The notes under the pieces are model-generated. The model was given only the letters and a program-made list of their open reading frames with translations, did no database searches and was not told the origin of the DNA. A stretch of DNA of 31,527 nt from a virus: IMG/VR virus record IMGVR_UViG_3300032236_000398, positions 1-31,527 of that record; one strand, written 5' to 3'. Each line of letters begins with the position of its first letter. Within the stretch, counting starts at the first letter, position 1. The position numbers and the translations under genes were made by a program. Positions 1-30,585 of this stretch are shown one piece after another.

Positions 1-2173
1 GCCCCTGTGGGCCTTCATAAGCCTTAGAAAGCGCCAAGGTGCGCCCGTTGCCGCTTTCGACAACATTGTCTGGGCCGACAATAGGTGCGCCAGAATTGGC
101 TTCTCTTGCCGGTCCAAGCATTTCCGGCTTCAGGTTTTTGGCGATGTCATCAATTTGCTGTTTCGACCCGGCCATCGTGCGATCACGAGGCTGCAATTCC
201 TGCGGGAATTGCGAATTGACCCTTAAATCACGATCATGCGACGTGACCAAAGACGGCAGATCCACCACTTCATAGCGTGCCTGCAACTGCCCGCCTGGGT
301 GGAAAATCGTGTAATTATTCAAGTCTTGCTGATAGGTTCCACCTTCTGGCTTTCCAGTCGGTAAGCCCTTAGATGTTGGAGTGCCTGGAAGTCCTTCGCC
401 AGCAAAGCGTTGTCCCATGCCCTCTTGAGGAACGCCGGTCTCGCCATTGGTTCCAGTTCTGACAGCACCCTCGCCACTAGCTGCGCCGGTGTTTCCTGCT
501 GGTTCCGCGCCATACGCCCTCAACCTAGCCGCAATCGTGTCTTCGGGGTCCAGTTTGCCCTGTTTAACCGCAGATTGTTCCCAAGCGTGCTGGTTATCAA
601 TGGCATTGTGAATATCGGACATAACAGCAGTTTTCAGGTCTTTCAACTGCTTATGGCCGACCCAATCACCGGCACGTTTTGCCTGCGCCATTTGGCCTGT
701 AATCGTCGAGTCCAGGTCGACAAGTTTATGATATGGCGTGACATCGCCAAGATTGGCCACCATGTCGATTACCGGGGCCGCGTGGCTGCTGGGTATTGTC
801 ACATTTGGATCAACACTGGATTGCAGGCTTCGGCCTGCTTCCTGCGCCCCCGTGGTAACAACAGACAGTTTTTTGTCTGGATCAACTTGTTTGTAAAGGT
901 TTGACCGTGCATCACGGGCGGCAATCATGGCCTGGTTGGTCATTTCACGGATTGCAGATCCGGTCGCTTCCGGTGCAGTGCCTGCTGGCATTTCATTGTG
1001 CAAATCTGCCGCATGTTCTGTAAGTGAATTGACCACCTGGTCATGCGCCTTGTCGATCATGCTGCCTTGTTCAGACAATGCCTTGCTGGGCATCATAAGA
1101 TCAGCATTATCTGGCGACATGCTCCGCAACGCTTCAACACGGGCGCGGTTTTGCTCATTCCGCACCGCATCCATGCGAACCTTGAAATCGGTGTTGACGT
1201 TTTCAGCGTTCTTTTGCGCCAGCAAAGCGCCGGGGTCCATTGCCAATTCACCGGTCGTGGCCGGTGAGCCGGTCAAAATGTCTTTATGGTTTTCCTTCAG
1301 GCGCTCATAAGCGGCCTTCGGGTCCGTAAACATTTGATAGAGCAGGCTGTCGGCCATGCCCTGCTGGTTCGCCCCGAACATTGGTTCCGTGAATTTTTTG
1401 ACAGGAGCCGCAGCAGCGTCAGCAAGTTTACCGCCGTAATGAGGCAGCACCATACCACCCACCAGGCCCGCCAAAGGATCGCCTGTGGCCTGCGTCACGG
1501 CTTCGCCGGTAGATCCTGCTGCAAAGTTAGCGGGAGCCATTTTAACGGCGTCTTTGAGGGTTTCTGTCAGTGCATTGTAAAAGCCTGGCTTGGCAAATGT
1601 GCCGACTTTAGCGCCCATTGCTGGACCCCAGCCACCGGCAACCATTTCAGTCCCGGCCATACCAACCTGGCCCAGCGTACTTTCCGGCTTATACTCGCCT
1701 GTCTTTTCAAAAATTGGTTTTGCCAATTCTTCGCCCGACGGGAGGACGTTTTGAGGCGCTATTTTAGCAGCCGCTTTCCCAATAGGGGTTGCATTTTTTT
1801 CATAGTCGGCCTGGCGCTCTTTATACTTTTTAAGAACGTCTTCGGTCGATTCCCCTGTGATTGCGCCATGTGCGCGAGCCAAAAGGTAATCCGCCATGTC
1901 GGACATGCCTTTGCCGCCCAACGCGCCAGGGATAGACGTAAGACCCTTAATCCCCGCCGTTGCCACCGCCTTCGGTAAAGCCTGCTCCGTCGGGGTTTCG
2001 CCCGACGGAGCATTGGACAAAAGTTTGCCTTGGTTGGCAAAATGTTCCAATTCCGCATCTGAATAGTGACTAAGATCTGTGGCCGGAGCCGGAGCAGAGG
2101 CAGCTTCCGGCTGACTGCCGGACGCGATTTTCTCAAGTTCGGCATCAGAGTATTGGCTGAGATCTGTAGGCAT
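1..2173 (-). CDS. Large phage protein, 3' truncated, with DdrB-like ParB domain at the visible C-terminal end
   Basis: The reading frame stays open from an ATG at 2173 to the left edge of the window (about 724 residues), so the C-terminus is missing. The start overlaps the stop of the upstream gene as TGATG and has an AAGGA-type ribosome site, which implies translational coupling. The N-terminus carries a tandem motif, TDLSQYSDAELE then TDLSHYSDAELE, separated by an Ala/Pro linker. A long, mostly helical middle follows. From about residue 632 the sequence resembles the ddrB-like ParB superfamily domain: a QPRDRT element, then GAPIVG and the signature ESGNGRT near the cut end. DdrB of phage P1 belongs to its Dar antirestriction system, whose proteins are packaged in the virion. 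Position behind the ejection/lysozyme gene suggests an internal virion protein delivered with the DNA, but this is inference. The domain call is from motif recall, not a search. Confidence 0.85.
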   Translation of the reverse strand, partial: MPTDLSQYSDAELEKIASGSQPEAASAPAPATDLSHYSDAELEHFANQGKLLSNAPSGETPTEQALPKAVATAGIKGLTSIPGALGGKGMSDMADYLLARAHGAITGESTEDVLKKYKERQADYEKNATPIGKAAAKIAPQNVLPSGEELAKPIFEKTGEYKPESTLGQVGMAGTEMVAGGWGPAMGAKVGTFAKPGFYNALTETLKDAVKMAPANFAAGSTGEAVTQATGDPLAGLVGGMVLPHYGGKLADAAAAPVKKFTEPMFGANQQGMADSLLYQMFTDPKAAYERLKENHKDILTGSPATTGELAMDPGALLAQKNAENVNTDFKVRMDAVRNEQNRARVEALRSMSPDNADLMMPSKALSEQGSMIDKAHDQVVNSLTEHAADLHNEMPAGTAPEATGSAIREMTNQAMIAARDARSNLYKQVDPDKKLSVVTTGAQEAGRSLQSSVDPNVTIPSSHAAPVIDMVANLGDVTPYHKLVDLDSTITGQMAQAKRAGDWVGHKQLKDLKTAVMSDIHNAIDNQHAWEQSAVKQGKLDPEDTIAARLRAYGAEPAGNTGAASGEGAVRTGTNGETGVPQEGMGQRFAGEGLPGTPTSKGLPTGKPEGGTYQQDLNNYTIFHPGGQLQARYEVVDLPSLVTSHDRDLRVNSQFPQELQPRDRTMAGSKQQIDDIAKNLKPEMLGPAREANSGAPIVGPDNVVESGNGRTLALSKAYEGPQG
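1983..2012. other. Perfect 12-bp inverted repeat inside a coding region
   Basis: Two 12-base arms (1983-1994 and 2001-2012) are exact reverse complements around a 6-base loop. The hairpin lies in codons about 54-64 of the partial DdrB-like gene. No T-run follows it in either direction, so it is not a standard intrinsic terminator. It could be an RNA structure affecting translation or mRNA decay, or chance in a GC-rich stretch. Confidence 0.6.
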
Positions 2174-5100
2174 CACTGGGTTCCTTTTGCGGCCCTACGA
2201 CGTGCAAGTTCTGCTGCGGCCACATCTGGGGCCGGAGGAGGTTTTGTCGCCTCTTGAGGTGTAGGTGTGTAATGATGCCAAGGATTTTCTTTGCGTGCCA
2301 GATAAATCTCTTTTTCGATGTTATCTTTTGCCGGGTCCATATCCATCACGCGCTCGTAAACAGCCTGCTGCGCTTTCGCTTTAGGCTCGATGGCGTTGTC
2401 AATGATCCACTTGATCGCGCCAGGCAGCATTTGAGCGCCTGGTGTCGCGTTCTGAACGTACTGGTTAAATTCACCAACACGAACCGGCGCACCGTTCAAT
2501 TCCATGCGAGCAAGTTCTGTCCCGGTCGACGTTTGCAGTTTTTTAACAGCGTCTGCATTGTTCGGATCGGTGTTCATGAGCTGCTTGATGAAATTGTCGC
2601 TGAACCCTGCCTGCTTGAACATGCCTGCGTACCTGTTGATCTTTTCACCCAAAGGGCCGGTGTTCACAAGCGGCTTGCCGTCTTTATCAAACAGCAGCGA
2701 CTTCATGGCAGATGTCTGAGACAGCAGGTCATTGGCATTGTCTGCCTCAACCGCCGCCTTCGAGCGTGCCGTGTTTTGTGTCGCAAAGTTCTTTTCGGTC
2801 GACATCTTTTTGGTTTCAAACGGTTCGGCTGTTTCCTTTTCAGCCTTTGTCACCATAGCCTTTTTGGCGGCTTCCGTTTCAGCAAAACCGGGGATTGCAA
2901 CAACCTGGTCATTCTTCATAACCTGGCCAGATGTTTTTACGCGATTGATGTCATTGGCAATCTTTTCTGCCAATGGCGTCAAACCTGAACCCATCGCAAT
3001 CTTAAAGTTTTTCTGCAAAAGCGGCAGGTTGTCGTTCGGATCAACACCCTTCCAGAAGTCGTCCGTCGGCTTCGGCATACCTTGCGATGCGTTTGCAACA
3101 GTTGTTTCGAGCTGTTTTGTTTTGTCAGTCGACGTGCCTGCGGGCGCACCACCGGCAGGAGGCTGCTGGCCCGGTTGACCTGCTACGGGCTGCTGTGTGC
3201 CGCCTGCTGGCTGCTGGGTTGTTGTTCCAGCAGTTTTGCCTGCACCTGTATCAGCAGGCAAAGGAGCATCTTTCAAAAGATCGCCTGCGCCAATCGATTT
3301 GAAAAACTCCGCAGTATCCAATGCAGGCAACCCAGCAATTTCACGACCGGCATTGAGCGTCCGCAATTGCTGCATAATTTCTGCAACTTTGGAAATGCGA
3401 GCCGTGTCCGCAGTCTTCTGCTGCACGCCAAGAGTACCGAACCCGATCTGGCTTTGCTCTTTTTCGCGCTGAATGTCGGCTTCCCGTTTATTCATAACGG
3501 ATTCTTGCGCCTTCATCTGCTGATAAGACTGTGCGCCAGCGCCAAGACCCTGCAAAATTGCAGATCCAAAATAACGGCTTGGCGAAGAAGCCATACCGGC
3601 CAGGCCAGAGAACAGCGGCACAAGGAATTTTTCGGACGTCAGTGTGTCCGTCCAATCCTTAGATTTGCCGTCGCTGCTGCCGCTGCTTTTGCTGGATGGA
3701 CCAACATCAGCAGATGGACGCGGAGGCATTTGGAAGTTTTTACCAGACGTAATTGCATCTGCTTCTGAAATCGCGTCATTGCCCGTCTGCTTCAGCAGAT
3801 TTGGGTTTGTCGGGAATACATAGGCAGGCAGTGTTTTGGTCAGTGGTGCATCTGGGTTAGAAAGCACGTTTTTAGCGCCTTCTGGACCAAAGTATTGCGC
3901 CAGACGATAGTTTGTCGGTGTCTTTTCGATGCCATTTGCATCAAAAAACTTGCCAGTGCTTTGAACAGTCCGCATGAAAGCGTCAATGTTCGCATCAGCG
4001 TTTTTCGGATCTTGGCCCTGGCCAACCTTGCTCCAGGTCGAAGGAATAAACTGAAACACGCCAGTGGCATTGCTTGCTTTGCCGTTTGAACCAACAGTGT
4101 CATTAACGCGGTTTGGATTAAGGCCGCTTTCATGCGTGGCATGGCGGATCATCCAAGTTGGATCGCCAAGGTTATATTCTGCGGCCTTGTCTGCGATCTT
4201 CTGGGCAATTGGATGGCTATAATCAATGCCTGAAGACGGTTTTGTCTGGGCTGGTGTTGTATCGGACTCTTCCGGCGTGATAGTCAAGCCAGAGCTGCCA
4301 TCGCCAACGACGTTGCCATCATTGCCAGCGTGATGTTCGCGTTTAATCAGTTTGTTGCTTTCGCCAACAAGACCCATCAAATACGACAAATCGGAATCCA
4401 CTTCGCCGCCGTCGGCGTAATGGGAATTGATAGCCCCACCGCGTTTTGCAAACAGCAAAAACGGAAGAATGTCGGCAATTCCTTCGCCAGCGGCAGCAGT
4501 TGTCGCCAATGCCTCGCCACCGGCCAACCCCGCTTCTGCAAGAGGAGCAGCCGCCGCAGCCGTTTCTGCAACAGGAGCCGCAGCGGCTGTTGCTTCAGCA
4601 ATAGGTGTCGCGGCAGCAGTTTCGGCCACAGGGGTTGTTGCCGCAGCAGCCTTTCCTGCGGCAGCAGGGGCTTCAGACATAAATGGACCAACCTGCGAAG
4701 CGTCAGTGATTGCTGCGCCATTGCTGGTCATGGGCGCAGAACCAACCTTGTCAATGCCAAACAGATCTTTGGCCTTATCAAGACCGGCAGTGCCAAGTTT
4801 TTGTGCGCTATATAGCTGAGAAACAGTACCGGCTGCATTTCCAAGCCCGCCCTGCGCGGAAGAGGGCATTTTGCCTTGGCGCTGCGCGTCTTGTTCGTTC
4901 TTCAGTTCCTGCGGGCTTGGCATTTGATAGTTAAGCGTACCCATGTAGCCTTTGGACTCATCTTGTCCCAGGCCATATGGCAACCCGCCACCTGGCGCAC
5001 GATGATGGCGAACGCTGCCGCCATAAGCCTTGTCATCGTCGCCAAACAGGTACTTTTTAGCCGTACTCAATGCGCCTTCTTCAGCAGGAGAACCGCCTTT

Positions 5101-6732
5101 TGCGTCCTTACCACCAAAAAATTCTTTACCGCTCTTCAGCATTTCGTAACCGGATGTTACGTCTTTGCCTGCCGAAACAGCGGCGTGAAGATCCGACCCA
5201 AGGCTTCCCTGGTTTTGTGGTGCGATGTTCTGGGCTGTTACCAACTTGGGTACAGGCATTTGCGAAACAGCCGCCGGGCTTGCACCGCCCAACCCTCCAC
5301 CGCCATAAATGCCTTTTGGGTTAAACGGCGCATACATGTTTTGATGAGCGCCCAACAAAGCAGACAAATCAGTAGCGTCGACAATGCTTGGCGAGCCGCC
5401 ACTTGCATAGTGGCCCCCGTGCGAAAACCCTTCCATCGCCCGGTTGAAATTGACGACGCCGCCTTCCGACGACGGGACAAGGCCACCCCTTTGGAAATGA
5501 CCTTTTTGCGCCGCATGATGTGTCGCTTTATCATAATCGACAGTTTTGTACCCGTGTGATTGACCAACCGCTTCGGGGTGATGCTTTTCGACGTCTTGTG
5601 CGATGAGGCCCATTCTTTTTGGGCCGTTTTCGCCTTTGTACCGGAACCGGATGATTTTCTGGCCATCGTATGTCTCACCGATATGCTCGATGTCCTGCTT
5701 CAGACGTTCGTCCGAAAATGCCGACGTCGGCGATGTTGTCTGCGTGGTCGATCCAGACAGTGCGCCAGTGCCTTCGGCAATCCCGGCCAAGAATTGAGCC
5801 ACCTGGAACGGATAACCCTGCTGCTGCTGGAATTGGTTATAGAGTGCCGACAGACCGGCCTGTTGCGTCTGCTGCGGAATCGTGCCTGCCTGCAATGCAG
5901 CCTGGCCACCAGTGATCGCGGCATTCTGTGCGCCACTGCCCAATTGGGCAAGCGTGTTGGCCCCGGTAACGCCCTGGTTATAGATCTGGTTGCCCAGGCC
6001 ACTTTGAGCGCCTGCTGCCCCTGTATATTGGTTAAAGAGCTGCTGCCCGGCCTGCCCTGCTGCGGCACGGTTTGCCTGCGCCGCACTGAGATCAACACCC
6101 TGCTGGCTGTTAAATTCATTCAGCGCCTGTCCGTAGCCTTGGTTCAAAAGACCACCGACAACATTGCCGGTCGCCATTTGCTGCTGGCCCATCAAAGCGG
6201 CCTGCGCCAATCCTGCACGATCACCGCCAAATGCACCCGCACCAATTGCGTTTCCGGTCAATTTGGCCTGATCTTGCTGTTGCTGCTGTTGCAGCGGAGC
6301 CAATGTCCCCTTGATGACATCGTTCATATAAGGGTTCATGTATTGATCAACGCCCTGCTGGCTAAACTGCCGGGCGTTAACAGGCATCGCGCTCTGCTGT
6401 GTCAGCGGGATCGCGCTTGAAAGAGCATTGTTGATATTGGAGCTGGCCATTTGGTTAAACGGCGAAGCATTTTGTGCGCCCTGAGCGAACGCACCACCTG
6501 CCTGCTGATACCAAGGCTGTGCAGAATTTTGGGCATTATAGATGTTGTTGATGCCGGAATTTTGCACTGCGTTTGTTTGTGCAACAAATGCGCTGGGATC
6601 TTGCGAATAGGCTTGAAAGGGCGTCTTTCCAATGTCTGCCGCAGTCGCGTTGACGGCGTTATACCGTGCAAGGACTTCTGGTGGAATGGTAACTGTGGAG
6701 GTAGTTGTGCCGCCCTTGCCGCCGCCGCCCAT
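2173..6732 (-). CDS. Giant internal virion/ejection protein with S74-like module and lytic transglycosylase domain
   Basis: This 1519-residue protein is led by a strong AGGAG site seven bases before ATG. Domains in order: a Gly-rich start and a Gln/Ala/Asn-rich helical region (1-335); an S74-like intramolecular chaperone module (about 338-408) with the SDERLK signature, Ser340 and Lys345 being the expected dyad, and MGLIAQDVE downstream; flexible Gly-rich linkers with RGG and HYADGG motifs; four APVAETAAA-type repeats (about 700-735); a soluble lytic transglycosylase domain (about 836-985) with catalytic Glu868 in HESGLNP, GVFQFIPSTW and LAQYFGP; a Ser/Gly linker; and a long helical tail with a Gln/Pro/Gly-rich segment near 1170-1200. 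Family knowledge: such lysozyme domains in podovirus ejection proteins open peptidoglycan during DNA entry. The internal placing of the S74 module is unusual. The lytic domain is very well supported; the exact virion role is inferred. Confidence 0.9.
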   Translation of the reverse strand: MGGGGKGGTTTSTVTIPPEVLARYNAVNATAADIGKTPFQAYSQDPSAFVAQTNAVQNSGINNIYNAQNSAQPWYQQAGGAFAQGAQNASPFNQMASSNINNALSSAIPLTQQSAMPVNARQFSQQGVDQYMNPYMNDVIKGTLAPLQQQQQQDQAKLTGNAIGAGAFGGDRAGLAQAALMGQQQMATGNVVGGLLNQGYGQALNEFNSQQGVDLSAAQANRAAAGQAGQQLFNQYTGAAGAQSGLGNQIYNQGVTGANTLAQLGSGAQNAAITGGQAALQAGTIPQQTQQAGLSALYNQFQQQQGYPFQVAQFLAGIAEGTGALSGSTTQTTSPTSAFSDERLKQDIEHIGETYDGQKIIRFRYKGENGPKRMGLIAQDVEKHHPEAVGQSHGYKTVDYDKATHHAAQKGHFQRGGLVPSSEGGVVNFNRAMEGFSHGGHYASGGSPSIVDATDLSALLGAHQNMYAPFNPKGIYGGGGLGGASPAAVSQMPVPKLVTAQNIAPQNQGSLGSDLHAAVSAGKDVTSGYEMLKSGKEFFGGKDAKGGSPAEEGALSTAKKYLFGDDDKAYGGSVRHHRAPGGGLPYGLGQDESKGYMGTLNYQMPSPQELKNEQDAQRQGKMPSSAQGGLGNAAGTVSQLYSAQKLGTAGLDKAKDLFGIDKVGSAPMTSNGAAITDASQVGPFMSEAPAAAGKAAAATTPVAETAAATPIAEATAAAAPVAETAAAAAPLAEAGLAGGEALATTAAAGEGIADILPFLLFAKRGGAINSHYADGGEVDSDLSYLMGLVGESNKLIKREHHAGNDGNVVGDGSSGLTITPEESDTTPAQTKPSSGIDYSHPIAQKIADKAAEYNLGDPTWMIRHATHESGLNPNRVNDTVGSNGKASNATGVFQFIPSTWSKVGQGQDPKNADANIDAFMRTVQSTGKFFDANGIEKTPTNYRLAQYFGPEGAKNVLSNPDAPLTKTLPAYVFPTNPNLLKQTGNDAISEADAITSGKNFQMPPRPSADVGPSSKSSGSSDGKSKDWTDTLTSEKFLVPLFSGLAGMASSPSRYFGSAILQGLGAGAQSYQQMKAQESVMNKREADIQREKEQSQIGFGTLGVQQKTADTARISKVAEIMQQLRTLNAGREIAGLPALDTAEFFKSIGAGDLLKDAPLPADTGAGKTAGTTTQQPAGGTQQPVAGQPGQQPPAGGAPAGTSTDKTKQLETTVANASQGMPKPTDDFWKGVDPNDNLPLLQKNFKIAMGSGLTPLAEKIANDINRVKTSGQVMKNDQVVAIPGFAETEAAKKAMVTKAEKETAEPFETKKMSTEKNFATQNTARSKAAVEADNANDLLSQTSAMKSLLFDKDGKPLVNTGPLGEKINRYAGMFKQAGFSDNFIKQLMNTDPNNADAVKKLQTSTGTELARMELNGAPVRVGEFNQYVQNATPGAQMLPGAIKWIIDNAIEPKAKAQQAVYERVMDMDPAKDNIEKEIYLARKENPWHHYTPTPQEATKPPPAPDVAAAELARRRAAKGTQ
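4528..4632 (-). repeat. Ala/Pro-rich tandem peptide repeats (APVAETAAA-type) in the ejection protein
   Basis: Four imperfect copies of a roughly 10-residue unit (P-[VIL]-A-E-[TA]-x-A-A-A-x) occupy residues about 701-735 of the 1519-residue protein. They form an extended or helical spacer between the S74-like part and the lytic transglycosylase domain. Copy number could vary by slippage. Confidence 0.75.
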
Positions 6733-15672: not shown

Positions 15673-16839
15673 TTAGATCCCTCTCATTTTTAACCGGTCG
15701 ACTTCATCAGAAACATCCTTGATGGCTTCGACCAACAAGCCAACAAGGTTGCCATATGCCACAGACAGATATTCACCGTCCTGCACCGCCTGGGGCAATA
15801 CTCTCTGGACTTCCTGTGCAATCAGGCCGGTCCCTGGCTCGCCGGTATCAATTCGCGTGTATTCGACACCGCGAAGTTTTTTAACCTTGTCGAGCGCGTT
15901 TGTGATCATCATCACGTCTTTTTTCAAACGGGCGTCTGAATAGGCGGTGACGTTCCCGGTTGCCACCAAATTGCCGCCTGAATTGGTTACATACATGGTG
16001 GTAGTTCCTGAAGCATTCAGGAAAGACAAATTTGTGCCGTCACCATAAAAGAACCCAAGGGCTGTGCCAGATCCATTAAGTAGTCTTACAGAAGAGCTGG
16101 TTTGCCCACTTGCTGCTTGCACGTTGAGAACATTTGCTGTTGTGGTCACTATAAGGGGAGTAGTAACACTGGTTGTAACACTAAGCGTGCTGGACAGCGT
16201 TGCGGCGCCCGTAACACCAAGTGTGCCAGAAAAACTTGCGCTTGTGCCGCTCAATGCGCCGGTCAGTGTGCCACCGGCCAGGGGTAGACCGCCAAGGTTA
16301 GTAAGCGCCTGGGTGAAGGTCGTTGCGCCTGTGCCGCCATTGGCAATCCCCAGCGTGCCTGCGACCGTTATGGCCCCGGTAGTTGTCGATGATGGCGTAA
16401 GGCCGGTCGACCCAAATGAAATAGACGAGACATATGAAGTCAGGCGGGTATCATCAGCGTAATAAATGTTTGTGCCGTCAGAGAACACAAATGCCCGCGT
16501 CAATTGGGTGACGGTAACGCTGGTTCCTCCACCAGATGAAGCAAGCGTAACCGTATAAGCGCCGGTTGTGCCGTTATAAACAATGTAAAAACCCGAAACG
16601 CCCGACGGAAAATTGATTGTGGCGTTAGAACCAAGTGTGCCGCTTACAGTGATGTAAACGGCCTGCACTTGCGCTTGTGTCAGGTTTGTAGCCCCGCCGG
16701 TCGTTGACACGCCAAACGAACCGCCGAAGCACTTGTCAATAATGTCCCAGTCGTTGTTGATAGGCGTGTTCCAAGAGTTAACGTAATCGTTATACCCTGG
16801 TTTTTCTATCGCCTTGTTCGTCGTATACGAGCTGGTCAT
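15673..16839 (-). CDS. Tail fibre/spike protein with C-terminal S74 chaperone domain (short paralogue)
   Basis: The 388-residue product opens with a conserved-looking anchor (IEKPGYNDYVNSWNTPINND) common in phage fibres that attach to a baseplate or tail. It continues with Gly/Thr/Ser-rich beta repeats (ANGGTGATTF type) typical of trimeric fibres. Residues about 300-384 form the peptidase S74 / intramolecular chaperone domain, with the SDARLK signature (Ser301, Lys306 as likely dyad), TGLIAQEVQ and a terminal helix. In this family the domain helps trimer assembly and then cuts itself off. A segment just before it (about 252-300) is nearly identical to the fibre at 19619-22084. The gene follows the radical SAM gene by 18 bases and has an AGGGA site. 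The fibre probably contacts the host surface. Confidence 0.9.
   Translation of the reverse strand: MTSSYTTNKAIEKPGYNDYVNSWNTPINNDWDIIDKCFGGSFGVSTTGGATNLTQAQVQAVYITVSGTLGSNATINFPSGVSGFYIVYNGTTGAYTVTLASSGGGTSVTVTQLTRAFVFSDGTNIYYADDTRLTSYVSSISFGSTGLTPSSTTTGAITVAGTLGIANGGTGATTFTQALTNLGGLPLAGGTLTGALSGTSASFSGTLGVTGAATLSSTLSVTTSVTTPLIVTTTANVLNVQAASGQTSSSVRLLNGSGTALGFFYGDGTNLSFLNASGTTTMYVTNSGGNLVATGNVTAYSDARLKKDVMMITNALDKVKKLRGVEYTRIDTGEPGTGLIAQEVQRVLPQAVQDGEYLSVAYGNLVGLLVEAIKDVSDEVDRLKMRGI
15938..16080 (+). repeat. 143-bp repeat, copy A (pair with 19920-20062)
   Basis: This stretch matches 19920-20062 with the same length and 137 of 143 identical bases (counted by eye), in the same orientation. It encodes the segment leading into the S74 domain of the short fibre. 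Weaker similarity continues to about 16170. The two copies flank the three-gene radical SAM cassette, so recombination between them could remove it. Confidence 0.9.
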
Positions 16840-16857: not shown

Positions 16858-18303
16858 TTATTCTGCCGTTAGGCTGGCCTTAGTGTAGACTTCCGTGCCT
16901 TCAACAACAATTTTGGCCTGGATAGCCGTAGCCAAAGCGACATCCTTTTGTGCAAATTCTTCGTGTTCAAGAATCGTACCCCAAATGTCTCTGCGCTCTG
17001 GAGGAAGATGATCCGCCTCGATGTAACTGGGAATATACCCTGTAATTTTATAAATTGACAGGGCGAACAGTGGGATCGCGTCGGAGAAGGCATTGTTGCA
17101 AGATGTTTCCCAGAAGTCGCCATCAAGGAACATGCAAGCGCCCTGGCAAATATGCAAAACAGGGCAGGCGGCACAATCAGGGCGATTGCGCCAATGTGTC
17201 GACGTCTTGATGGAAACAGCGTCCATATTGGCGACATTCCCGCCCATATGCTGCATACCGTTCATAGAAGTTGAAACAGCGCTAACATTCTGGCAGGTGA
17301 TCACATTGCCCCGGAGATCCACGGCCAACACGTTTTCATCGTCCATCCCGCATTTTTGAGCCAAATTTTGTGCGGATTGATGCGTCAAAACGGCATGGGT
17401 AAACCCATCAATTTTTTGAAGGATGCCTTGGAAACCAATGTCACCATCCCCTTCAAAAATGTCATTAAGTGCTGTTTGCCGAAATAAAAAATGATCTTTT
17501 TTTGTGCTGAGAGCGTTTTTAAGGCCGTCGGCATCATAGGCGTCAATAATACCACCTTCGCCAAGAACAACATTTTGGTCGCCCGTAAAATCGCGGAACC
17601 AATCTGATATTACTTTGCGACTCATATTGTTGACGTTTAGCATTGAATTGAAACTGATGCGCCCCTGCTTCTTCATACGGCGATAAAACCGAAGCACAGT
17701 ATCTTTTTTGTCGGGGTCAACAAACGGATCAGGACCGCGGACAGACTGGCCTGGACCATCATGGCTTATGGAAACAGCAAACTGGTTATTGTACAACCAA
17801 TCACAAATTTCATCTGTCAAAAGAGAACCATTTGTAATCATAGAAAATTGTGGTTTTTCTTCCCACTTGATAAATTTCTTTTGTAAAGCCTCGACCAATG
17901 GAAAAATGGTTTTGATGTAAACCAGTGGCTCTCCGCCCCATATTTCAATTTTAAGGCCGGTCTTTTCATTGAATTCAAGGGATTCGATCTTTTTTATAAA
18001 AGCGTCGACATCTTTTTTGCTGGTTTCATCTGCACGTTCGACAAACCGCTGCGAACAATAATTGCAGCTATAATTGCAAGATAAGCCAAGCTGGATCTTC
18101 AAAACACGAACCAGTTTTGACTTTTTCAGGCCCGTATATTTGTCAAACGGAACAGACACGGACCCTTGGCCAATGCTTGCTTTGATCCTGTCATTGTCTT
18201 CAAAAACAAAACCGTTGTCCGAAGAAAGCGTGTTTGTCTCATTATCGTACATAAAAACCCTGCGTTCGCCCGCAGGGCTTTCAGCCAAAAACTTGAATTG
18301 CAT
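16858..18303 (-). CDS. Radical SAM / SPASM-domain peptide-modifying enzyme
   Basis: The 481-residue start is set by AGGAGGG (18309-18315), five bases before ATG. Residues 76-83 hold the CX3CX2C motif (Cys76, 80, 83) that binds the SAM-cleaving 4Fe-4S cluster, with WGGEP at 122-126 for SAM contact. The C-terminal region has a full SPASM pattern: Cys318-X13-Gly-X4-Cys337, then Cys377-X2-Cys380-X5-Cys386-X3-Cys390 and Cys402, able to hold two more clusters. Residues 1-65 are an extra N-terminal region. SPASM enzymes (PqqE, anSME, sactisynthases, ranthipeptide and QhpD-type thioether synthases) mostly modify peptide or protein side chains. The Cys-rich virion-like protein two genes upstream is the obvious candidate substrate. 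Local G+C is low (17821-17880 has 17 of 60), hinting at acquisition. Family is certain; the reaction is inferred. Confidence 0.95.
   Translation of the reverse strand: MQFKFLAESPAGERRVFMYDNETNTLSSDNGFVFEDNDRIKASIGQGSVSVPFDKYTGLKKSKLVRVLKIQLGLSCNYSCNYCSQRFVERADETSKKDVDAFIKKIESLEFNEKTGLKIEIWGGEPLVYIKTIFPLVEALQKKFIKWEEKPQFSMITNGSLLTDEICDWLYNNQFAVSISHDGPGQSVRGPDPFVDPDKKDTVLRFYRRMKKQGRISFNSMLNVNNMSRKVISDWFRDFTGDQNVVLGEGGIIDAYDADGLKNALSTKKDHFLFRQTALNDIFEGDGDIGFQGILQKIDGFTHAVLTHQSAQNLAQKCGMDDENVLAVDLRGNVITCQNVSAVSTSMNGMQHMGGNVANMDAVSIKTSTHWRNRPDCAACPVLHICQGACMFLDGDFWETSCNNAFSDAIPLFALSIYKITGYIPSYIEADHLPPERRDIWGTILEHEEFAQKDVALATAIQAKIVVEGTEVYTKASLTAE
18253..18277 (-). terminator. Terminator-like hairpin inside the radical SAM gene (codons 9-17)
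   Basis: Read on the minus strand, CCCTGCG and CGCAGGG form a perfect 7-bp GC-rich stem (18277-18271 and 18264-18258) around the loop GGCGAA, followed directly by TTTTT and then an in-frame ATG (codon 18). This is the layout of an intrinsic terminator, but it lies within the coding sequence. It may act as an attenuator limiting the enzyme's expression, relieved by translating ribosomes, or may be a fossil of an older terminator. Confidence 0.55.
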
Positions 18304-18308
18304 GATAA

Positions 18309-18315
18309 CCCTCCT
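18309..18315 (-). promoter_or_regulatory. Strong Shine-Dalgarno site for the radical SAM gene
   Basis: AGGAGGG lies five bases before the ATG at 18303, one of the strongest ribosome sites in the window. It fixes the start and places the terminator-like hairpin inside the translated region. Confidence 0.85.
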
Positions 18316-18327
18316 GTTGGTTGCAAA

Positions 18328-19215
18328 TTAAACGACTGGAATAAGAGCCTCTCCAAGCCCCGGCACATAGCGCCATCCAGCCTTCACACGAATAGTATCT
18401 CCCGCGTCAAGCCCCATAGAGCTGATACGGAAGCTGCCGACGCCGTTTACCAGCGTCACACGAGTCTTTGGCAACACACCAACGACAGGTTCTAAAAACA
18501 CTTCAGAATTGCAATCTGCCCGCAAATCGCCAGACGGCATACGGCATTCGACGTTTACAGTTGCCATTGCATCTGGTGACATCGACGATGGAGCAGACAA
18601 CACCAAAGTTGGATATGTATTGGCCATATCGTTATCGTCAGGGAATGCAGGTGGCGATACTTCACCTTGCCCTTCGACATAAACCTTATACCCGCACGCA
18701 GCATTCATTTTGACAACGATAGTCGCTTTATCCCATTCTTGGCCCGCGAAATCAGTCCGAACAGACAATGCGCTTCCAGTTACAAAATCGGTATAAATTG
18801 CGTTTTTGTGCAACCGACCCGGCATTGTATCAACGGTGCGATTTGATGGACGGAACAACCTGCCCATTTTGTCCATACGCATGATCAAAACACACTGATC
18901 GGTGTTTGGGCTATGGCCAAGATATTCAGATGTCCGAGAAATGCTAAGAGCGCATTCAAGCCTGAACGGGAACCCCGCTAGAGTTTCACTAAACACACTG
19001 CCATCAAACCAGCGGTAAGGCGGCTGGGCATAAGTGACCTTATCGGGGGCATGTGTCGTAAACAGTTCTGCCAATTCAGCGTCAGTGTACTGTTCACCTT
19101 TTTGGTCGTCAGTAAATTGCTGAAAAGTGCGGACGCTAATGCAGTCTTTGCCGATCACATAAGACGTCGGAAAAACAAAATTGCCTTCATAGTGGAAAAC
19201 ATTGAAGTCGGTCAT
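18328..19215 (-). CDS. Unknown protein with C-terminal Ig-like (Big-type) domain, in the radical SAM cassette
   Basis: This 295-residue protein has a GAGGAC site overlapping the stop of the Cys-rich gene. Residues 1-195 are a mixed region with aromatic-rich segments (FHYEGNFVFPTSYVIG, then AQPPYRWFDG) of no recognised family. Residues about 203-295 look like a bacterial Ig-like domain: PTLVLSAPSSMSPDAMATV, then FLEPVVGVLPKTRVTLVNGV, a GVGSF turn, and DAGDTIRVKAGWRYVPG. Such domains decorate virion surfaces and bind cell-surface sugars weakly. It sits between the Cys-rich protein and the radical SAM enzyme. It could be a fibre partner, an adaptor for the modified protein, or a second substrate. 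It contains several scattered cysteines but no Cys-rich block. Confidence 0.8.
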   Translation of the reverse strand: MTDFNVFHYEGNFVFPTSYVIGKDCISVRTFQQFTDDQKGEQYTDAELAELFTTHAPDKVTYAQPPYRWFDGSVFSETLAGFPFRLECALSISRTSEYLGHSPNTDQCVLIMRMDKMGRLFRPSNRTVDTMPGRLHKNAIYTDFVTGSALSVRTDFAGQEWDKATIVVKMNAACGYKVYVEGQGEVSPPAFPDDNDMANTYPTLVLSAPSSMSPDAMATVNVECRMPSGDLRADCNSEVFLEPVVGVLPKTRVTLVNGVGSFRISSMGLDAGDTIRVKAGWRYVPGLGEALIPVV

Positions 19216-19224
19216 TGGATGTCC

Positions 19225-19608
19225 TCAGCAGTTTGAGCAGTCGCATGTGGTGCAGTTTGGCTGTGTCCACATGTTCTGAGTGCAGTTATAAGTGCAGGCA
19301 CAGTTGCAGTTAGTTTGAATGTAGGATTGAGCATCGCAATTTGCGCAGTTAATGGCGGTGTTATAGCAATTAACACAATTGTACGCTCCGCAATCGCAGT
19401 TCCCCGTGGCACAATTTCCATTGTTGCAATTTCCCGCCGTGTTTTGTTTGTAATAGGCTTTGCTGTAATATGCGTTCATAGCATACGACTGCTGGCCTGT
19501 TTTTGTCTTAGAATACACGAAAGACATGGAGTTATTAGCGGTCGAGGCCAGCCCCAGTTCGGTGCTGAAGTTCGACATCGCAATCGTGCCTGATGCTGGA
19601 AGTGTCAT
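19225..19608 (-). CDS. Virion-type protein with Asn-Cys-rich C-terminal tail; candidate radical SAM substrate
   Basis: I set the start at 19608 (MTLPASGTIAMSN, 127 residues), because GAGGGAG lies at good spacing and because the LPxSGxIxMxxxxxELG opening is a recurrent start of phage virion proteins; the longer frame adds seven residues overlapping the fibre gene. Residues 1-60 have no cysteine. Residues 61-127 hold 16 cysteines (61, 66, 71, 73, 78, 81, 88, 91, 101, 103, 105, 109, 119, 122, 124, 127), 12 of them preceded by Asn, with Gly, Thr, Ala and Tyr between, and Cys as the last residue. The sharp two-part design, a leader-like or anchor half and a Cys-rich core, is like a radical-SAM RiPP precursor, yet the first half looks virion-anchoring. 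Disulfide bonding or metal binding are alternatives to enzymatic modification. Confidence 0.88.
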   Translation of the reverse strand: MTLPASGTIAMSNFSTELGLASTANNSMSFVYSKTKTGQQSYAMNAYYSKAYYKQNTAGNCNNGNCATGNCDCGAYNCVNCYNTAINCANCDAQSYIQTNCNCACTYNCTQNMWTQPNCTTCDCSNC

Positions 19609-19618
19609 GTAATCTCCC

Positions 19619-22084
19619 TCAATCCCCACAACGGCATGGTGGCTGGCCTTTTAATTGCCTGATTTCTTCGCGCATAGCAACGATCTCTTTGCAAAGCTCG
19701 ATCACGCCGACCATAGCGGCATTGCCGTATGACACGGACAATCTGCCTTCTGTATCCTCCAAAACAGCGTCAGGAAGCACTTCGCGCAAAGATTGAGCCG
19801 ATACCCCGACTTGTGTCATTTCTTGGTCTGTACGGTCAAAAATTCCGCTTTTAACCCGCGCCAAACTGGCAATGGTGTCCGAAGAAAGATCACGCCAGTT
19901 GGTCTTGACCCGTTCATCCGAATAGGCGGTGATGTTCCCGGTTGCCACCAAATTGCCGCCTGAATTGCTTACATACATGGTGGCAGTTCCTGAAGCATTC
20001 AGGAAAGACAAATTTGTGCCGTCGCCATAAAAGAATCCAAGGGCTGTGCCAGAACCATTAAGAATTTTTACGGCAGAGGTAGTTTGCCCACTTGCTGCCT
20101 GCACGCTCAGGACATTTGCTGCTGTGGTCACTATTGTCGGGGTGGTAACAGTTGTAAACGAACCCGCCGCTGCTGTCGTCCCACCAATCGCAGGAGGAGA
20201 AGCAAGGTAGGTGCTAAACCCTGTGCCGGACACGGTGCTGGAAGCAGATAGTGTAGTGAATGCGCCTGTTGATGCGGTTGTCGCACCAACAGTTCCGTTC
20301 CAAGCACCAGTTGTAATTGTGCCAACAGTGGTAAGAGACGAAAGAGACGTTACTGCGCTTGTAACAAGACCCCCCGCCGTATTCACCGCATTGGCAATAG
20401 CCGTCAAAACACCAGTGCCGGTGCTAACCGTCGAAGGCGCAACACCTGCGCCGCCACCAACAACAATGGCATTTGACGTCAAAACCCCGGACGTCGCCCA
20501 TGTCGATGCGCTACTAAAGTACGGGATACCGCCAGATGTGCCTGCAACAGTGAAAGCGGGGGTCGTGGTGGCCGTGGCCACAGAGATGATGCCACCGGTG
20601 AACCCAACGCTTGTAACCGTGCCTGTAGCGGCCCAAGTGCCGTCACCACGCAAATATGTGGTCGAAGACGGCGTGCCGGACACAGGATTGGTGAAGCTGG
20701 TTGCGGAGCTGATGACGTAACCGCTTGTCGGCAATGTCAGGCTGGTGGAAGCAGTGACAGCCAGGGTTGTCGGGAATGCACCGGAAAGGGTCAAATTGCC
20801 GCCCAGCGTGATCGTGCTTGAGCCATTATTGACGCCTGTGCCGCCATATGTCGAGCCGATAACAGTGCCGTTCCAAGTGCCGGACGTGATCGTTCCGACC
20901 GTTGTCAAAGATGCAAGCGTTGCAAGAGAAGTTGCCGACGTCAGCGAGTTCAACGTGGTCACGGCGCTGGTGGCCAAGCCGCCCGAAGTGTTCACCGCGT
21001 TGCCAATAGCCGTCAAAACGCCAGTGCCGGTTGTTGTCGTGGCAGGTGTTGCACCGGTCCCACCGCCGATGACAATGGCATTTGCGGCCAAAACGGCAGA
21101 AGAAGCCCAGGTCGACGCAGAGCTGAAATAAGGAATGCCGCCAGATGTGCCAGCGACCGTCAAAGCCAACGTGCCTGCACCCGTAACAGGCGACCCCGAA
21201 ACAGAGATTAAACCGCCGGTAAACGTCTGGCCGACACTTGTGACCGTACCGGCCCCGGCCACAGTTGCCCAGGTTCCATCCCCGCGAAGAAATGTCCCGG
21301 AATTTGGCGTGCCGGTCACAGGGTTGGTAAAATTAGTTGCAGACGTAATCACATACCCGGAAGCAGGCAGTGTTACGTTTGTCGATGCACCCGCCGTTAA
21401 AGTGACAGAATAAGCCCCGGAGGTGGCAAGAGTAGAACCGTTCGCCAATGTTAGCGTGCCGGTAGTTGTGGTGATTGTCGCCCCGTTTATGCTGGTTGCA
21501 GTGGCAACGCCAAGGACCGGAGTAACCAGCGTCGGCGTGGTGCTAAGAACAACAGAACCTGTGCCTGTTTTGGTTGTTACACCTGTACCACCGGCCAGCA
21601 CAGGCAATGTGCCTGCGGTTAAAACAGAAGCAGACGTCGAATAAATGGCATTGTTGGCTGCGGTAAACGTGGAAAGAGCCGTACCGCCATTGGCCGTCGG
21701 CAACACACCCGTAATGGACGAAGCAGGAAGCCCGGTGGCATTTGCCAGGTTAATAGCCGACGGCGTGCCTAAGTCCGGTGTGACCAAAGCAGGTGAATTG
21801 CTAAGAACAACAGAACCAGAACCCGTGCTACTTGTAACGCCTGTTCCACCATTGGCAACATTTAACGTACCTGCAACAGTGATCGCACCAGACGTGCCAG
21901 AAATTGGCGTCAAACCCGTCGTGCCGAAGCTAATAGACGAAACGTAGGTCAAAAGGCTGTTGGAATAAGCCGCGATCTGCGCTGTGGTAACTTTAACGGA
22001 CGCATTAGACTGGACACCCAGGATAAGTTCCGCACCCGACAATGACGATACCGCAGGAAGATTTGGGATGACGATATTGGACAT
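19619..22084 (-). CDS. Large tail fibre with repeated beta modules and C-terminal S74 chaperone domain
   Basis: The 821-residue protein starts with a TAATG overlap and an opening (NLPAVSSLSGAELILGVQSN) seen in phage fibres. Its shaft is Gly/Thr/Ser-rich with ANGGTG and GGTGVTS motifs and two long internal copies (residues about 239-408 and 450-599). Residues about 720-812 are the S74 intramolecular chaperone domain: SDERVK (Ser722, Lys727), VGVSAQSLREVLPDAV and SVSYGNAAMVGV, then a coiled-coil helix. The domain would trimerise the shaft and then be released by self-cleavage. The protein ends in an odd short tail, QPPCRCGD, with two cysteines, just before the Cys-rich gene. It shares a near-identical segment with the short fibre. 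It is likely the main receptor-binding fibre. Confidence 0.92.
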   Translation of the reverse strand: MSNIVIPNLPAVSSLSGAELILGVQSNASVKVTTAQIAAYSNSLLTYVSSISFGTTGLTPISGTSGAITVAGTLNVANGGTGVTSSTGSGSVVLSNSPALVTPDLGTPSAINLANATGLPASSITGVLPTANGGTALSTFTAANNAIYSTSASVLTAGTLPVLAGGTGVTTKTGTGSVVLSTTPTLVTPVLGVATATSINGATITTTTGTLTLANGSTLATSGAYSVTLTAGASTNVTLPASGYVITSATNFTNPVTGTPNSGTFLRGDGTWATVAGAGTVTSVGQTFTGGLISVSGSPVTGAGTLALTVAGTSGGIPYFSSASTWASSAVLAANAIVIGGGTGATPATTTTGTGVLTAIGNAVNTSGGLATSAVTTLNSLTSATSLATLASLTTVGTITSGTWNGTVIGSTYGGTGVNNGSSTITLGGNLTLSGAFPTTLAVTASTSLTLPTSGYVISSATSFTNPVSGTPSSTTYLRGDGTWAATGTVTSVGFTGGIISVATATTTPAFTVAGTSGGIPYFSSASTWATSGVLTSNAIVVGGGAGVAPSTVSTGTGVLTAIANAVNTAGGLVTSAVTSLSSLTTVGTITTGAWNGTVGATTASTGAFTTLSASSTVSGTGFSTYLASPPAIGGTTAAAGSFTTVTTPTIVTTAANVLSVQAASGQTTSAVKILNGSGTALGFFYGDGTNLSFLNASGTATMYVSNSGGNLVATGNITAYSDERVKTNWRDLSSDTIASLARVKSGIFDRTDQEMTQVGVSAQSLREVLPDAVLEDTEGRLSVSYGNAAMVGVIELCKEIVAMREEIRQLKGQPPCRCGD
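19920..20062 (+). repeat. 143-bp repeat, copy B (pair with 15938-16080)
   Basis: This is the second copy of the near-identical repeat, in the same orientation, encoding residues about 675-722 of the long fibre, just before the S74 domain. Differences from copy A are single scattered bases, mostly synonymous, as expected from conversion or duplication followed by drift. Confidence 0.9.
20288..21370 (-). repeat. Two long internal repeats of the fibre shaft
   Basis: Two copies of a 150-170 residue module lie at about 20861-21370 and 20288-20737. Shared landmarks are SGYVI-SAT-FTNPV, LRGDGTW, AGTSGGIPYFSSASTWA, TGTGVLTAI and the TSGTWNGTV-type end. The copies differ at many bases, so the duplication is old. 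Such shafts change length by recombination. Confidence 0.85.
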
Positions 22085-27397: not shown

Positions 27398-28669
27398 TTA
27401 GAAGTTGGCATACTGGGTGTTGCCAAACAGGCCAGCGGAAGAGCTGACGTTGTAAGGCTGGGGCGATTGACGAACCACATAACGATTGGTCCCGGTCGAT
27501 GGAGTCAAATTGACACCTGTCCCGTTTGACAGATCAATTGTCCCGCGAACGTCGCCAGTCGTGGCAGTCGGGTAGGTATTGTCAGCAGCAGTAAAGCCGG
27601 TGAAGTTGGTCACAGGCTGCAAGAGCGTCTTCGATGCCCCCGCCGCTGCCGTAAGTTCGCCCGACGAATCGGCGCGAATTGGCAACCCAACCAGGGCGCT
27701 TGTGCCTACGGAATAAGCGTGGGTCGTATCAGCCGTGCCGCCCGACAGGGTGACAGACTTGATATACTTGAACGCTTTTTTACCGGTGACGGTGCTGCCA
27801 GCCGAGAGAGTGGCAGTTTCAGTCATCGGGAAACCGTAAACATCATAACCAGCGCAGGTGATTGTGGTGTACGTCCCAGCAGTTGCGGCAGTATACGTCA
27901 AAGCGCGACCCAATACGGCCTGTGGGTTCCACAGGTTAAGCGTTCCAGCCTGCCCCTGGGGGATGGCGTTGGAAAGAACCGCATCAATAGCGTTATTCAA
28001 CGATGCCGTAACCGTGATCTGCGAACCGCTGGTCCCGGCTGTGAACGAATTACCGCTAACAGTGTAAGAACCAGTGAACCCAGTACCAGCGCCACCGTTA
28101 GAAAGGGTAGCACCAACAGTTGGACCAAAACCGGTGATGGTTGTGCCAGAAGGAATACCCGTGCCGCTGATAACCATGCCAATCGCCAGGGGGCCGTTAC
28201 CAGCCGTCGAAACGATCAGAGTGTTACCGGCAACGCCGGATGTTCCGTTAGAAACGTAACCGGTCACTGTGGCATAAGCATCAAGTGCCACAAAACCAGC
28301 GCCGCCATTGGTATCGACCGCGCCGGTGTCGGCACGAACGATCTGGCTTACAATCGAAACACCGGTTGTCGCCGAAGCGGAAGACACAAGCGTCAGGGTC
28401 GCCGACGTTGGGTTTGCCGAGGCAACAATCGCAGCAGAAGACACGGTGTAAGGAACAATGTTCAGGGTCGTGATGTTATCAAAACCGTAAAACATGCCCG
28501 TAAACGCGCCGAAATTCTGCCCGGCGATGTAGGTATAAGGGAGACGGGGATCAAGAATCCCCGCACCAGCGTAGAAAGCCGACGGCCCCAGCTCTGGATT
28601 GTACTCCAAAGGGTTGTACGGACTTTGCCCAAACGTAAGAAGGGGGCCGGAGAAAGTTGTGATAGCCAT
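27398..28669 (-). CDS. Putative virion structural protein with Ig-like insert
   Basis: The 423-residue protein begins with TFSGPLLTFGQSPYNPLEYN and contains PYTYIAGQNFGAFTGMFYGF, then beta-rich sequence. An insert-like unit (about 137-222: ISGTGIPSGTTITGFGPTVG, then GSYTVSG) resembles the modules in other virion proteins of this phage. The C-terminal part includes ALTYTAATAGTYTTITCAGY and VTGKKAFKYIKSVTLSGGT, and ends with YVVRQSPQPYNVSSSAGLF. It directly follows the major capsid gene, so it should be abundant; a second decoration or head-vertex protein is a fair guess. No Pfam-level identity is claimed. Confidence 0.82.
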   Translation of the reverse strand: MAITTFSGPLLTFGQSPYNPLEYNPELGPSAFYAGAGILDPRLPYTYIAGQNFGAFTGMFYGFDNITTLNIVPYTVSSAAIVASANPTSATLTLVSSASATTGVSIVSQIVRADTGAVDTNGGAGFVALDAYATVTGYVSNGTSGVAGNTLIVSTAGNGPLAIGMVISGTGIPSGTTITGFGPTVGATLSNGGAGTGFTGSYTVSGNSFTAGTSGSQITVTASLNNAIDAVLSNAIPQGQAGTLNLWNPQAVLGRALTYTAATAGTYTTITCAGYDVYGFPMTETATLSAGSTVTGKKAFKYIKSVTLSGGTADTTHAYSVGTSALVGLPIRADSSGELTAAAGASKTLLQPVTNFTGFTAADNTYPTATTGDVRGTIDLSNGTGVNLTPSTGTNRYVVRQSPQPYNVSSSAGLFGNTQYANF

Positions 28670-29613: not shown

Positions 29614-30585
29614 TTAGATGCCAGCAAGAGACTTCATCATGGAGTTGTTAAACCCAACGACGATCTTGTTGTAAGCGGTTGTGCTATCGTTTCCGTTGAT
29701 GGAAACCAGCGGGCTAGTCGCGCCAGGGACATAGTTGGCAAGACTGATGATGCGGAATGGCAGGAAGTTGTTGGCAACCGCACCCGCGTTCGAGTTTGCA
29801 ATCAGCGAGTACTGATCAGCGAAGTAGGTCGACAGGCCGTTCGCGGTGTTACCGAGAGTTTCACCGGTTGCGGTCGAGTCATTGTAGTTGAAGCCAATGT
29901 TCTGACCGACCGAAGCCAAACCAACCGCTGTTGCAGTGGTGTTGGAGTTCGCCGTCTGCACGATAAACTGTGCGTTCGGATCGGTGATAACATAAGCCTG
30001 CACGTCGCCGTTTGCGTCAGCGCCGGGCCAATAGTTGGACCAAACGGTGCGCTTCTGCGAGGTCGACAGGTACTTACAACCAACAAACACACCAGCAATC
30101 GGGGTATACAGGGTGACAACACCCGAAGCCGTCGAAGTTGCGTTGATCGTTGCACCGGCATTGGCGCAAACGATGGTGGTCGAAGTTGCGGAAGTGACCT
30201 GGTAAGTGCCGTTCAGGTTGCCCGAAGACATAGTTGAGCCGACGATGGTGATGTAGGAACCAATCGGGGCTGTGAAAGCGTTCGGGGAAGAAGGCAGGTT
30301 GCCAGAGGTTGAGGTGGTTGGAGCCGTAATAGTTACGGTCAACGCGCCGGTCGTGGAGTTGGTGGTGATGGCAGTCGCGCCAACAGTCAACGTGATAGGG
30401 CCATAAGCCTGGTTGATGTAGCCAGTGCCGACACCGGTTGTACCGGCGGACATCACTACGGGATCACCAAAGAAAATCGGAGTGGTATTGCCCGAAGCAA
30501 TAGCCATTGTGGTCTGTTCGTACGATGGAGTCGTACCAGTGCCTTGATACTGCTGAAAACCGTTTGGCGCAAAGGTATTTGCCAT
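29614..30585 (-). CDS. Capsid decoration-like virion protein with Ig-like insert
   Basis: The 323-residue protein opens with NTFAPNGFQQYQGTGTTPSY and EQTTMAIASGNTTPIFFGDPVV, which I recall from phage proteins encoded just upstream of the capsid gene. It ends with a beta domain (VGCKYLSTSQKRTVWSNYWP, then YVITDPNAQFIVQ and VGQNIGFNYND). Between them, residues about 62-162 contain a Thr/Gly/Ser-rich unit with YITIVGSTMSSGNLNGTYQV, a likely inserted Ig-like module. AAGGAG lies eight bases before the start. It is the first gene after the candidate promoter, so it should be made in large amounts along with the capsid protein. A shell-stabilising or decorating role is inferred. Confidence 0.82.
   Translation of the reverse strand: MANTFAPNGFQQYQGTGTTPSYEQTTMAIASGNTTPIFFGDPVVMSAGTTGVGTGYINQAYGPITLTVGATAITTNSTTGALTVTITAPTTSTSGNLPSSPNAFTAPIGSYITIVGSTMSSGNLNGTYQVTSATSTTIVCANAGATINATSTASGVVTLYTPIAGVFVGCKYLSTSQKRTVWSNYWPGADANGDVQAYVITDPNAQFIVQTANSNTTATAVGLASVGQNIGFNYNDSTATGETLGNTANGLSTYFADQYSLIANSNAGAVANNFLPFRIISLANYVPGATSPLVSINGNDSTTAYNKIVVGFNNSMMKSLAGI

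Follow-up and report, generated by a model that had tools for sequence, protein, structure and literature searches.

A phage-encoded radical SAM/SPASM enzyme and a neighbouring Asn-Cys-rich tail-fibre-type protein: a candidate ranthipeptide-like system for thioether cross-linking of fibre tips

Why would a phage carry a peptide-modifying type of radical enzyme in the middle of its tail fibre genes? The question is raised by a 31.5 kb viral contig (IMG/VR record IMGVR_UViG_3300032236_000398), analysed over its full 31,527 nucleotides, which we refer to as the window. All genes of the locus are on the minus strand. A tail fibre gene with an S74 (endosialidase-chaperone) domain (19619..22084) lies immediately upstream of the gene for P0003, a protein rich in Asn-Cys pairs (19225..19608, 127 aa). 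It is followed by P0002 (18328..19215, 295 aa) and by the enzyme, P0001 (16858..18303, 481 aa); a second S74 tail fibre gene (15673..16839) is found immediately downstream of P0001. The gaps between P0003, P0002 and P0001 are 9 to 24 bases. Further downstream of this cassette are an endolysin-type gene and a tail/virion gene, while the gene for the major head protein is upstream. The latter is surrounded by two long ORFs without a PHROG match (27398-28669 and 29614-30585). The window also codes for a 1519 aa protein (2173-6732), which matches virion structural and DNA ejection families and has similarity to S74-bearing fibres in its first 400 residues. We know of no described case of virion proteins being modified by radical enzymes. 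A search covering the open-access literature found no account in which a virion protein is the substrate of a radical SAM enzyme.

P0001 belongs to the radical SAM/SPASM enzymes, and none of the ten cluster cysteines is missing. The motif CNYSCNYC (CX3CX2C; residues 76-83, 18055..18078), the site of the SAM-binding [4Fe-4S] cluster, is located in a radical SAM domain (PF04055, 39 bits with a cut-off of 29.5), and a WGGEP motif follows at residues 122-126 (17926..17940). The SPASM region (residues 318-402, 17098..17352) has cysteines 318, 337, 377, 380, 386, 390 and 402. They are arranged as CX13GX4C...CX2CX5CX3C...C, the last being C402, which conforms to the SPASM consensus (CX9-15GX4C-gap-CX2CX5CX3C-gap-C). 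The earlier note had read all three motifs from the DNA, and they are confirmed. The ten cysteines are invariant in an alignment of 45 non-redundant homologues. P0001 belongs to phrog_1802 (6e-63). When compared to curated named maturase families, it misses all cut-offs by far. The best two NCBIfam matches are PapB (1e-23) and QhpD (5e-23), the best score being 83.9 bits as compared to the 340 that are required for PapB.

Which reaction such an enzyme may catalyze can be approached via its fold and its cluster ligands. An AF2 model computed from 43 sequences is of high confidence (pLDDT 86.8, pTM 0.87). The closest solved structure is that of CteB (Z 22.0, rmsd 4.1, 345 aligned residues). This alignment covers residues 1-422 of P0001; the N-terminal part, where ranthipeptide maturases have an RRE (peptide-binding) domain, was compared within the whole chain. 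Further fold matches are ChlB (Z 18.9), anSMEcpe (17.6) and TigE (17.3), and profile matches were obtained to TigE (2e-17), CteB (2e-15) and anSME (7e-10). In anSME, an extra cysteine is a ligand of the first auxiliary cluster (AuxI), and an Asp after the second SPASM cysteine is the catalytic base. In alignments of the stretch between the first two SPASM cysteines, anSMEcpe has extra cysteines and the subsequent Asp, while CteB has no extra cysteine. An extra cysteine between the first two SPASM cysteines was seen in 0/45 aligned homologues and in 0/73 others in which the motif was found. Directly behind the second SPASM cysteine, 112 of these 118 homologues have Gln, five have His, one has Pro and none has Asp (Gln follows C337 in P0001 itself). 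As judged from the sequence alignment, AuxI of P0001 would keep three cysteines, as in CteB. Since it lacks the extra AuxI cysteine and the Asp and is CteB-like, P0001 is more readily seen as a thioether synthase than as a formylglycine-forming enzyme, and its modelled structure and predicted cluster ligation appear closer to CteB than to anSME. For CteB, one auxiliary cluster has been described as openly coordinated (PMC8326336).

These data bear on the possibility that the Asn-Cys-rich protein is modified by a different radical reaction, such as conversion of Cys to formylglycine (anSME-like), formation of alpha-carbon thioethers (sactipeptide-like), desaturation, epimerisation or C-C bond formation. 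Enzymes of the anSME type are among the nearest structures (Z 17.6), one record of phage JWF (see below) names the homologue an anaerobic sulfatase-maturating enzyme, and two of the residues found before the cysteines of the proposed substrate, Ala and Gln, are not classic thioether acceptors. Against this, CteB is the best fold match, and no CXPSR-type motif was seen in P0003. Formylglycine chemistry in particular is disfavoured by the absence of the extra AuxI cysteine and the Asp from all 118 homologues. Overall, we consider another radical reaction rather unlikely.

The proposed substrate, P0003, has a virion-type N-terminal domain (MTLPASGTIAMSNFSTELG...), which is followed by a Cys-rich C-terminus. 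A count confirmed what the earlier note had reported: the last 67 residues (61-127; 19228..19428) contain 16 cysteines, 12 of which are preceded by Asn. For this Asn-Cys-rich (NC) region, AF2 confidence is mostly low. A fold search of P0003 against the PDB matched no chain, and a search in BFVD retrieved a single good match, which is an unnamed protein from an uncultured phage. Sequence identity to the NC proteins of the viral loci described below is 33-57% in most loci.

The residue preceding each cysteine is strictly constrained. In 52 NC regions with 881 cysteines, this residue is Asn (68%), Ala (16%), Asp (8%) or Gln (6%). Together, these account for 857/881 cysteines, as compared to 52% (maximum 55.5%) when the non-Cys residues are permuted inside each NC region; the count overstates the number of events, as homologous positions are not independent. 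The residue after the cysteine is free. The spacing of the cysteines is irregular, there is no fixed Asn at position -3, and some cysteines occur in ACACAC or CC runs without an adjacent Asn. Distant prophage NC tails follow a looser rule (122/148), with CC and GC. Asn, Ala, Asp and Gln have an unbranched beta-carbon in common. We hypothesize that this reflects either radical chemistry at the beta-carbon of the preceding residue or a rule of recognition. In three relatives (L033:407-898, L035 and L056), the C-termini of the NC proteins have grown into long (V)DCACAC repeats with up to 31 cysteines, which suggests repeat growth and loss.

The pairing of the enzyme with an NC gene is firm. Relatives of the enzyme were found in viral contigs (433) and in bacterial genomes (129). 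The best 80 of the 433 viral relatives were examined. An NC-rich gene on the same strand, no more than about 3.1 kb away, accompanies 79 of them, and the remaining locus (L027) has a remnant of one at the contig edge. The reverse search relied on a DNA pattern for NCNCACTYNC alone. It retrieved 76 stretches, of which 69 have the enzyme within 2.6 kb of the motif on the same strand. Six of the seven others are cut off on one side, about 530 bases or less from the motif; the seventh (L168) is a 1.2 kb piece of the L008 contig, and L008 has the enzyme. The earlier note had named a lack of co-occurrence in relatives as one refuting outcome; this check was passed in both directions (80/80 viral loci when the remnant is counted). 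Single-sequence searches for relatives in viral contigs found none, and the NC alignment was too variable for a scan. Bacterial-genome loci have an upstream NC-type gene on the same strand in 64/80 cases (59 detected by script and five by eye), mostly with the NC-type module as a terminal NCNC tail. Of the 16 loci that lack such a partner, nine have no more than about 2 kb of upstream sequence before the cut. No NC partner is found at seven genome loci with ample upstream sequence (L092, L127, L148, L149, L155, L160 and L162), L162 having a partial match to one. The enzyme relatives from L092, L127, L148, L155 and L160 are possible orphans or may have another substrate. Radical SAM genes from Campylobacter phages were considered but rejected; they match only the core, and the one that was inspected has no annotated tail-fibre gene next to it.

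The position of the NC gene varies: it may be the next gene upstream or downstream of the enzyme gene, or lie at a distance of one or two genes. The neighbours of the pair change as well, with the next commonest neighbour family occurring in 56 loci. For loci with a distant NC gene, a second enzyme copy was considered and rejected; in four of them, the intervening genes are desaturase-like (family F25). Distance matrices of the enzyme and of the N-terminal domain of the NC protein are correlated (r 0.51, p 2e-4), while the correlation with the NC core is weak (r 0.25, p 0.004); such correlations are also expected from mere gene linkage.

A conserved neighbourhood can indeed persist through linkage alone. 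The NC segment might then act without any modification, by binding a metal or an Fe-S cluster or by forming a disulfide knot, with the target of the enzyme elsewhere, and metal binding is common in Cys-rich segments. However, the co-occurrence holds in both directions despite changed gene orders, fibre types and hosts, the cysteines are irregularly spaced, and the constraint on the preceding residue matches no metal-site rule known to us. We thus regard an unmodified NC segment as improbable, and infer that the enzyme acts on the NC protein.

The setting in tail fibres, which the earlier note had proposed for the Cys-rich protein, is just as firm. P0003 is predicted to be a virion protein of the tail-fibre kind, as its gene is placed among tail fibre genes and its relatives carry S74 or Hint domains or collagen-like or fibre shafts. 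In its relatives, the NC module is terminal or precedes a processing domain. It is the natural C-terminus in some proteins (...CFVCACACW). In others, an S74 domain follows directly (L012 ...CACFWS|DDTLK, L043 ...CDCFWS|DDTLK, L005 ...CACACS|DKSLK), and the natural ends agree with these boundaries (...CACFWS|DD). In a third class, a Hint domain follows directly, starting at residue 308 in P0005, at 306 in P0009 and at 157 in L015. S74 and Hint domains cut themselves off. The mature fibre would therefore end in an NC tip. A fourth class has a C-terminal domain of about 180 residues after the NC module. This domain (SKIICTKLY...ADQ.YG...) is present in L008:8468-9373 and about 30 relatives. It has no Pfam match and resembles part of a protein of cyanophage SynMITS9220M01 that adjoins a fibre gene.

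The pair also occurs in cultivated phages. The Achromobacter phages JWF, a temperate siphovirus (PMC3899368), and 2-1 code for the enzyme at 42-44% identity, with a tail-fibre protein two genes upstream in which the NC run leads into a Hint domain (...NCNCDCNCNCSC-FPAGT). The bacterial-genome loci are from Limnohabitans, Polynucleobacter, other Burkholderiales, Rhodobacterales, Magnetospirillum and others. Here, collagen-like and tail-fibre shafts run into the NC module; a fibre-like example is MQNFTDIPSSRS..., which is related to JWF gp028 (5e-17), and a collagen-like one is GPQGPQGPAGNCNCACDCGNN. In the loci tested, prophage neighbours include the central tail fibre J, the tape measure protein, S74/collagen fibres and an integrase.

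P0003 is small and has the look of a leader plus a Cys-rich core, and many rSAM/SPASM enzymes make RiPPs. It might be a released RiPP that the phage carries as a peptide weapon or signal, instead of a virion part. RiPP precursors are short, cleaved and exported leader-core peptides. The relatives of P0003, however, have about 115-480 aa, the NC modules end long fibre proteins or precede S74/Hint processing domains, and several relatives have fibre shafts. Moreover, no exporter or peptidase family is found among the annotated recurrent neighbours. We consider a released peptide very improbable.

One gene, that for P0002, separates the substrate candidate from the enzyme, so that the enzyme is two genes away from the Cys-rich protein, as originally noted. 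P0002 is a recurrent accessory protein with a C-terminal Ig-like domain of the Big_1/invasin type (about residues 200-295, 18331..18618, limits approximate). P0002 alone matches no family; the Ig-like assignment of the earlier note holds at the family level, up to 4/26 members matching Big_1 or Invasin_D3 (best E-value about 1e-4). A first view that P0002 is not conserved, based on the absence of relatives in BLAST, was withdrawn when an iterative profile retrieved relatives in 63 loci, 57 of them from bacterial genomes. In the inspected loci, these are encoded between the NC-tailed fibre gene and the enzyme. A partner role for the Ig-like protein, which the earlier note had suggested, has partial support: the family recurs, but the profile search did not detect it in most of the closest viral loci, where the enzyme and NC genes are adjacent. 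JWF-type loci carry the P0006 family instead (seven loci). P0006 was rejected as a P0002 homolog, as the two are separate families in profile searches.

Genes for other modifying enzymes are found near the pair in many relatives (L004-L083; families F2, F4, F5, F20, F21 and F25). They code for 2OG-Fe(II) oxygenases (also in prophage loci L108 and L129), an Asp/Asn beta-hydroxylase (F5, 40 loci), a tryptophan-halogenase-like protein (F20, 17 loci) and paired fatty-acid-desaturase-like proteins (F25). A second radical SAM protein, of the B12-binding type, is encoded near the cassette in 19 loci (F18, including L069:7178-8695). The oxygenase-, hydroxylase-, halogenase- and desaturase-like neighbours may form a wider tip-modification cluster or may just be common phage genes. 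It is tempting to speculate, though we give this less than even chances, that there is a widespread tip-maturation cassette in tailed phages. It would be built around the radical SAM/SPASM enzyme, to which an Ig-like partner is often added, along with nearby 2OG-Fe(II) oxygenases, tryptophan-halogenase-like enzymes or Asp/Asn hydroxylases in many relatives. It would make a multiply thioether-linked (X-Cys)n knob, perhaps with each Cys bridged to the preceding residue, as a chemically new receptor-binding surface at the fibre end.

Our preferred reading, which we hold to be reasonably probable, is a phage-encoded, ranthipeptide-like thioether cross-linking of tail-fibre tips, with P0001 acting on the Asn-Cys segment of P0003. 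Modification of the NC tip by the enzyme is likely, and we have considerable confidence in this part. If the tip is modified, beta- or gamma-thioethers are our best guess among the radical reactions, with a fair margin of doubt; the thioether idea fits the predicted CteB-like fold and cluster ligation. P0003 would be a tail-fibre-associated (tip) protein and P0001 its peptide maturase. During virion assembly in the infected cell, P0001 would bind a substrate cysteine at a presumed open iron site of AuxI and would abstract a hydrogen. The likeliest source of this hydrogen is a beta-carbon, either that of an Asn close by or that of the residue preceding the cysteine. Cys-S-C thioether bridges would form, and the reaction would be repeated across many cysteines. 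There are precedents for parts of this scheme: in NxxcA, a Cys is linked to the beta-carbon of Asn (PMC8326336), and PapB accepts even adjacent Cys and Asp, though inefficiently (PMC9413430). The bridged cysteines would give the exposed fibre end a compact knob with non-reducible cross-links, of use in receptor contact and for durability outside the cell. Hardening as the purpose of the cross-links is speculation.

The occurrence of the pair in many uncultured phages, in prophages and in two cultivated Achromobacter phages suggests that phages chemically cross-link those fibre tips that touch the host. If this is true, part of the phage adhesion tip is built by chemistry that is invisible to sequence reading or standard modelling, which bears on the evolution of host recognition. 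The viral and genome relatives (433 and 129) would then be a rich family of iterative thioether-forming enzymes, and the cultivated phages JWF and 2-1 would make the proposal directly testable.

Several known systems share features with this locus. The self-cleaving S74 and Hint domains of phage tail fibres end the fibres at the NC tip in some relatives, and we know of no link of these domains to a radical SAM enzyme. With anSME, P0001 has the SPASM fold in common (Z about 17.5) but lacks two features of anSME, the additional AuxI cysteine and the Asp that follows SPASM cysteine number two. PapB and QhpD (the quinohemoprotein amine dehydrogenase maturase), the best NCBIfam matches although far below the family cut-offs, form multiple thioethers from Cys to acidic residues, and the substrate of QhpD is a protein subunit; the substrate proposed here is Asn-Cys rich and virion-linked. 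A direct precedent for a beta-thioether from Cys to Asn is NxxcB/NxxcA (PMC8326336). NxxcA is, however, a streptococcal peptide with a single i to i-3 bridge, whereas the NC regions have no fixed Asn at -3. The closest system is that of CteB, the SCIFF maturase and a ranthipeptide synthase (PDB 5WHY, 5WGG). It has 17% sequence identity to P0001 and a similar predicted fold (Z 22 over residues 1-422), and both lack the extra AuxI cysteine. A Cys-rich substrate is common to both systems, the thioether chemistry being a proposal for the phage enzyme. In Clostridia, the substrate CteA is a short free peptide, whereas the phage counterpart is a virion-type protein with up to 31 cysteines.
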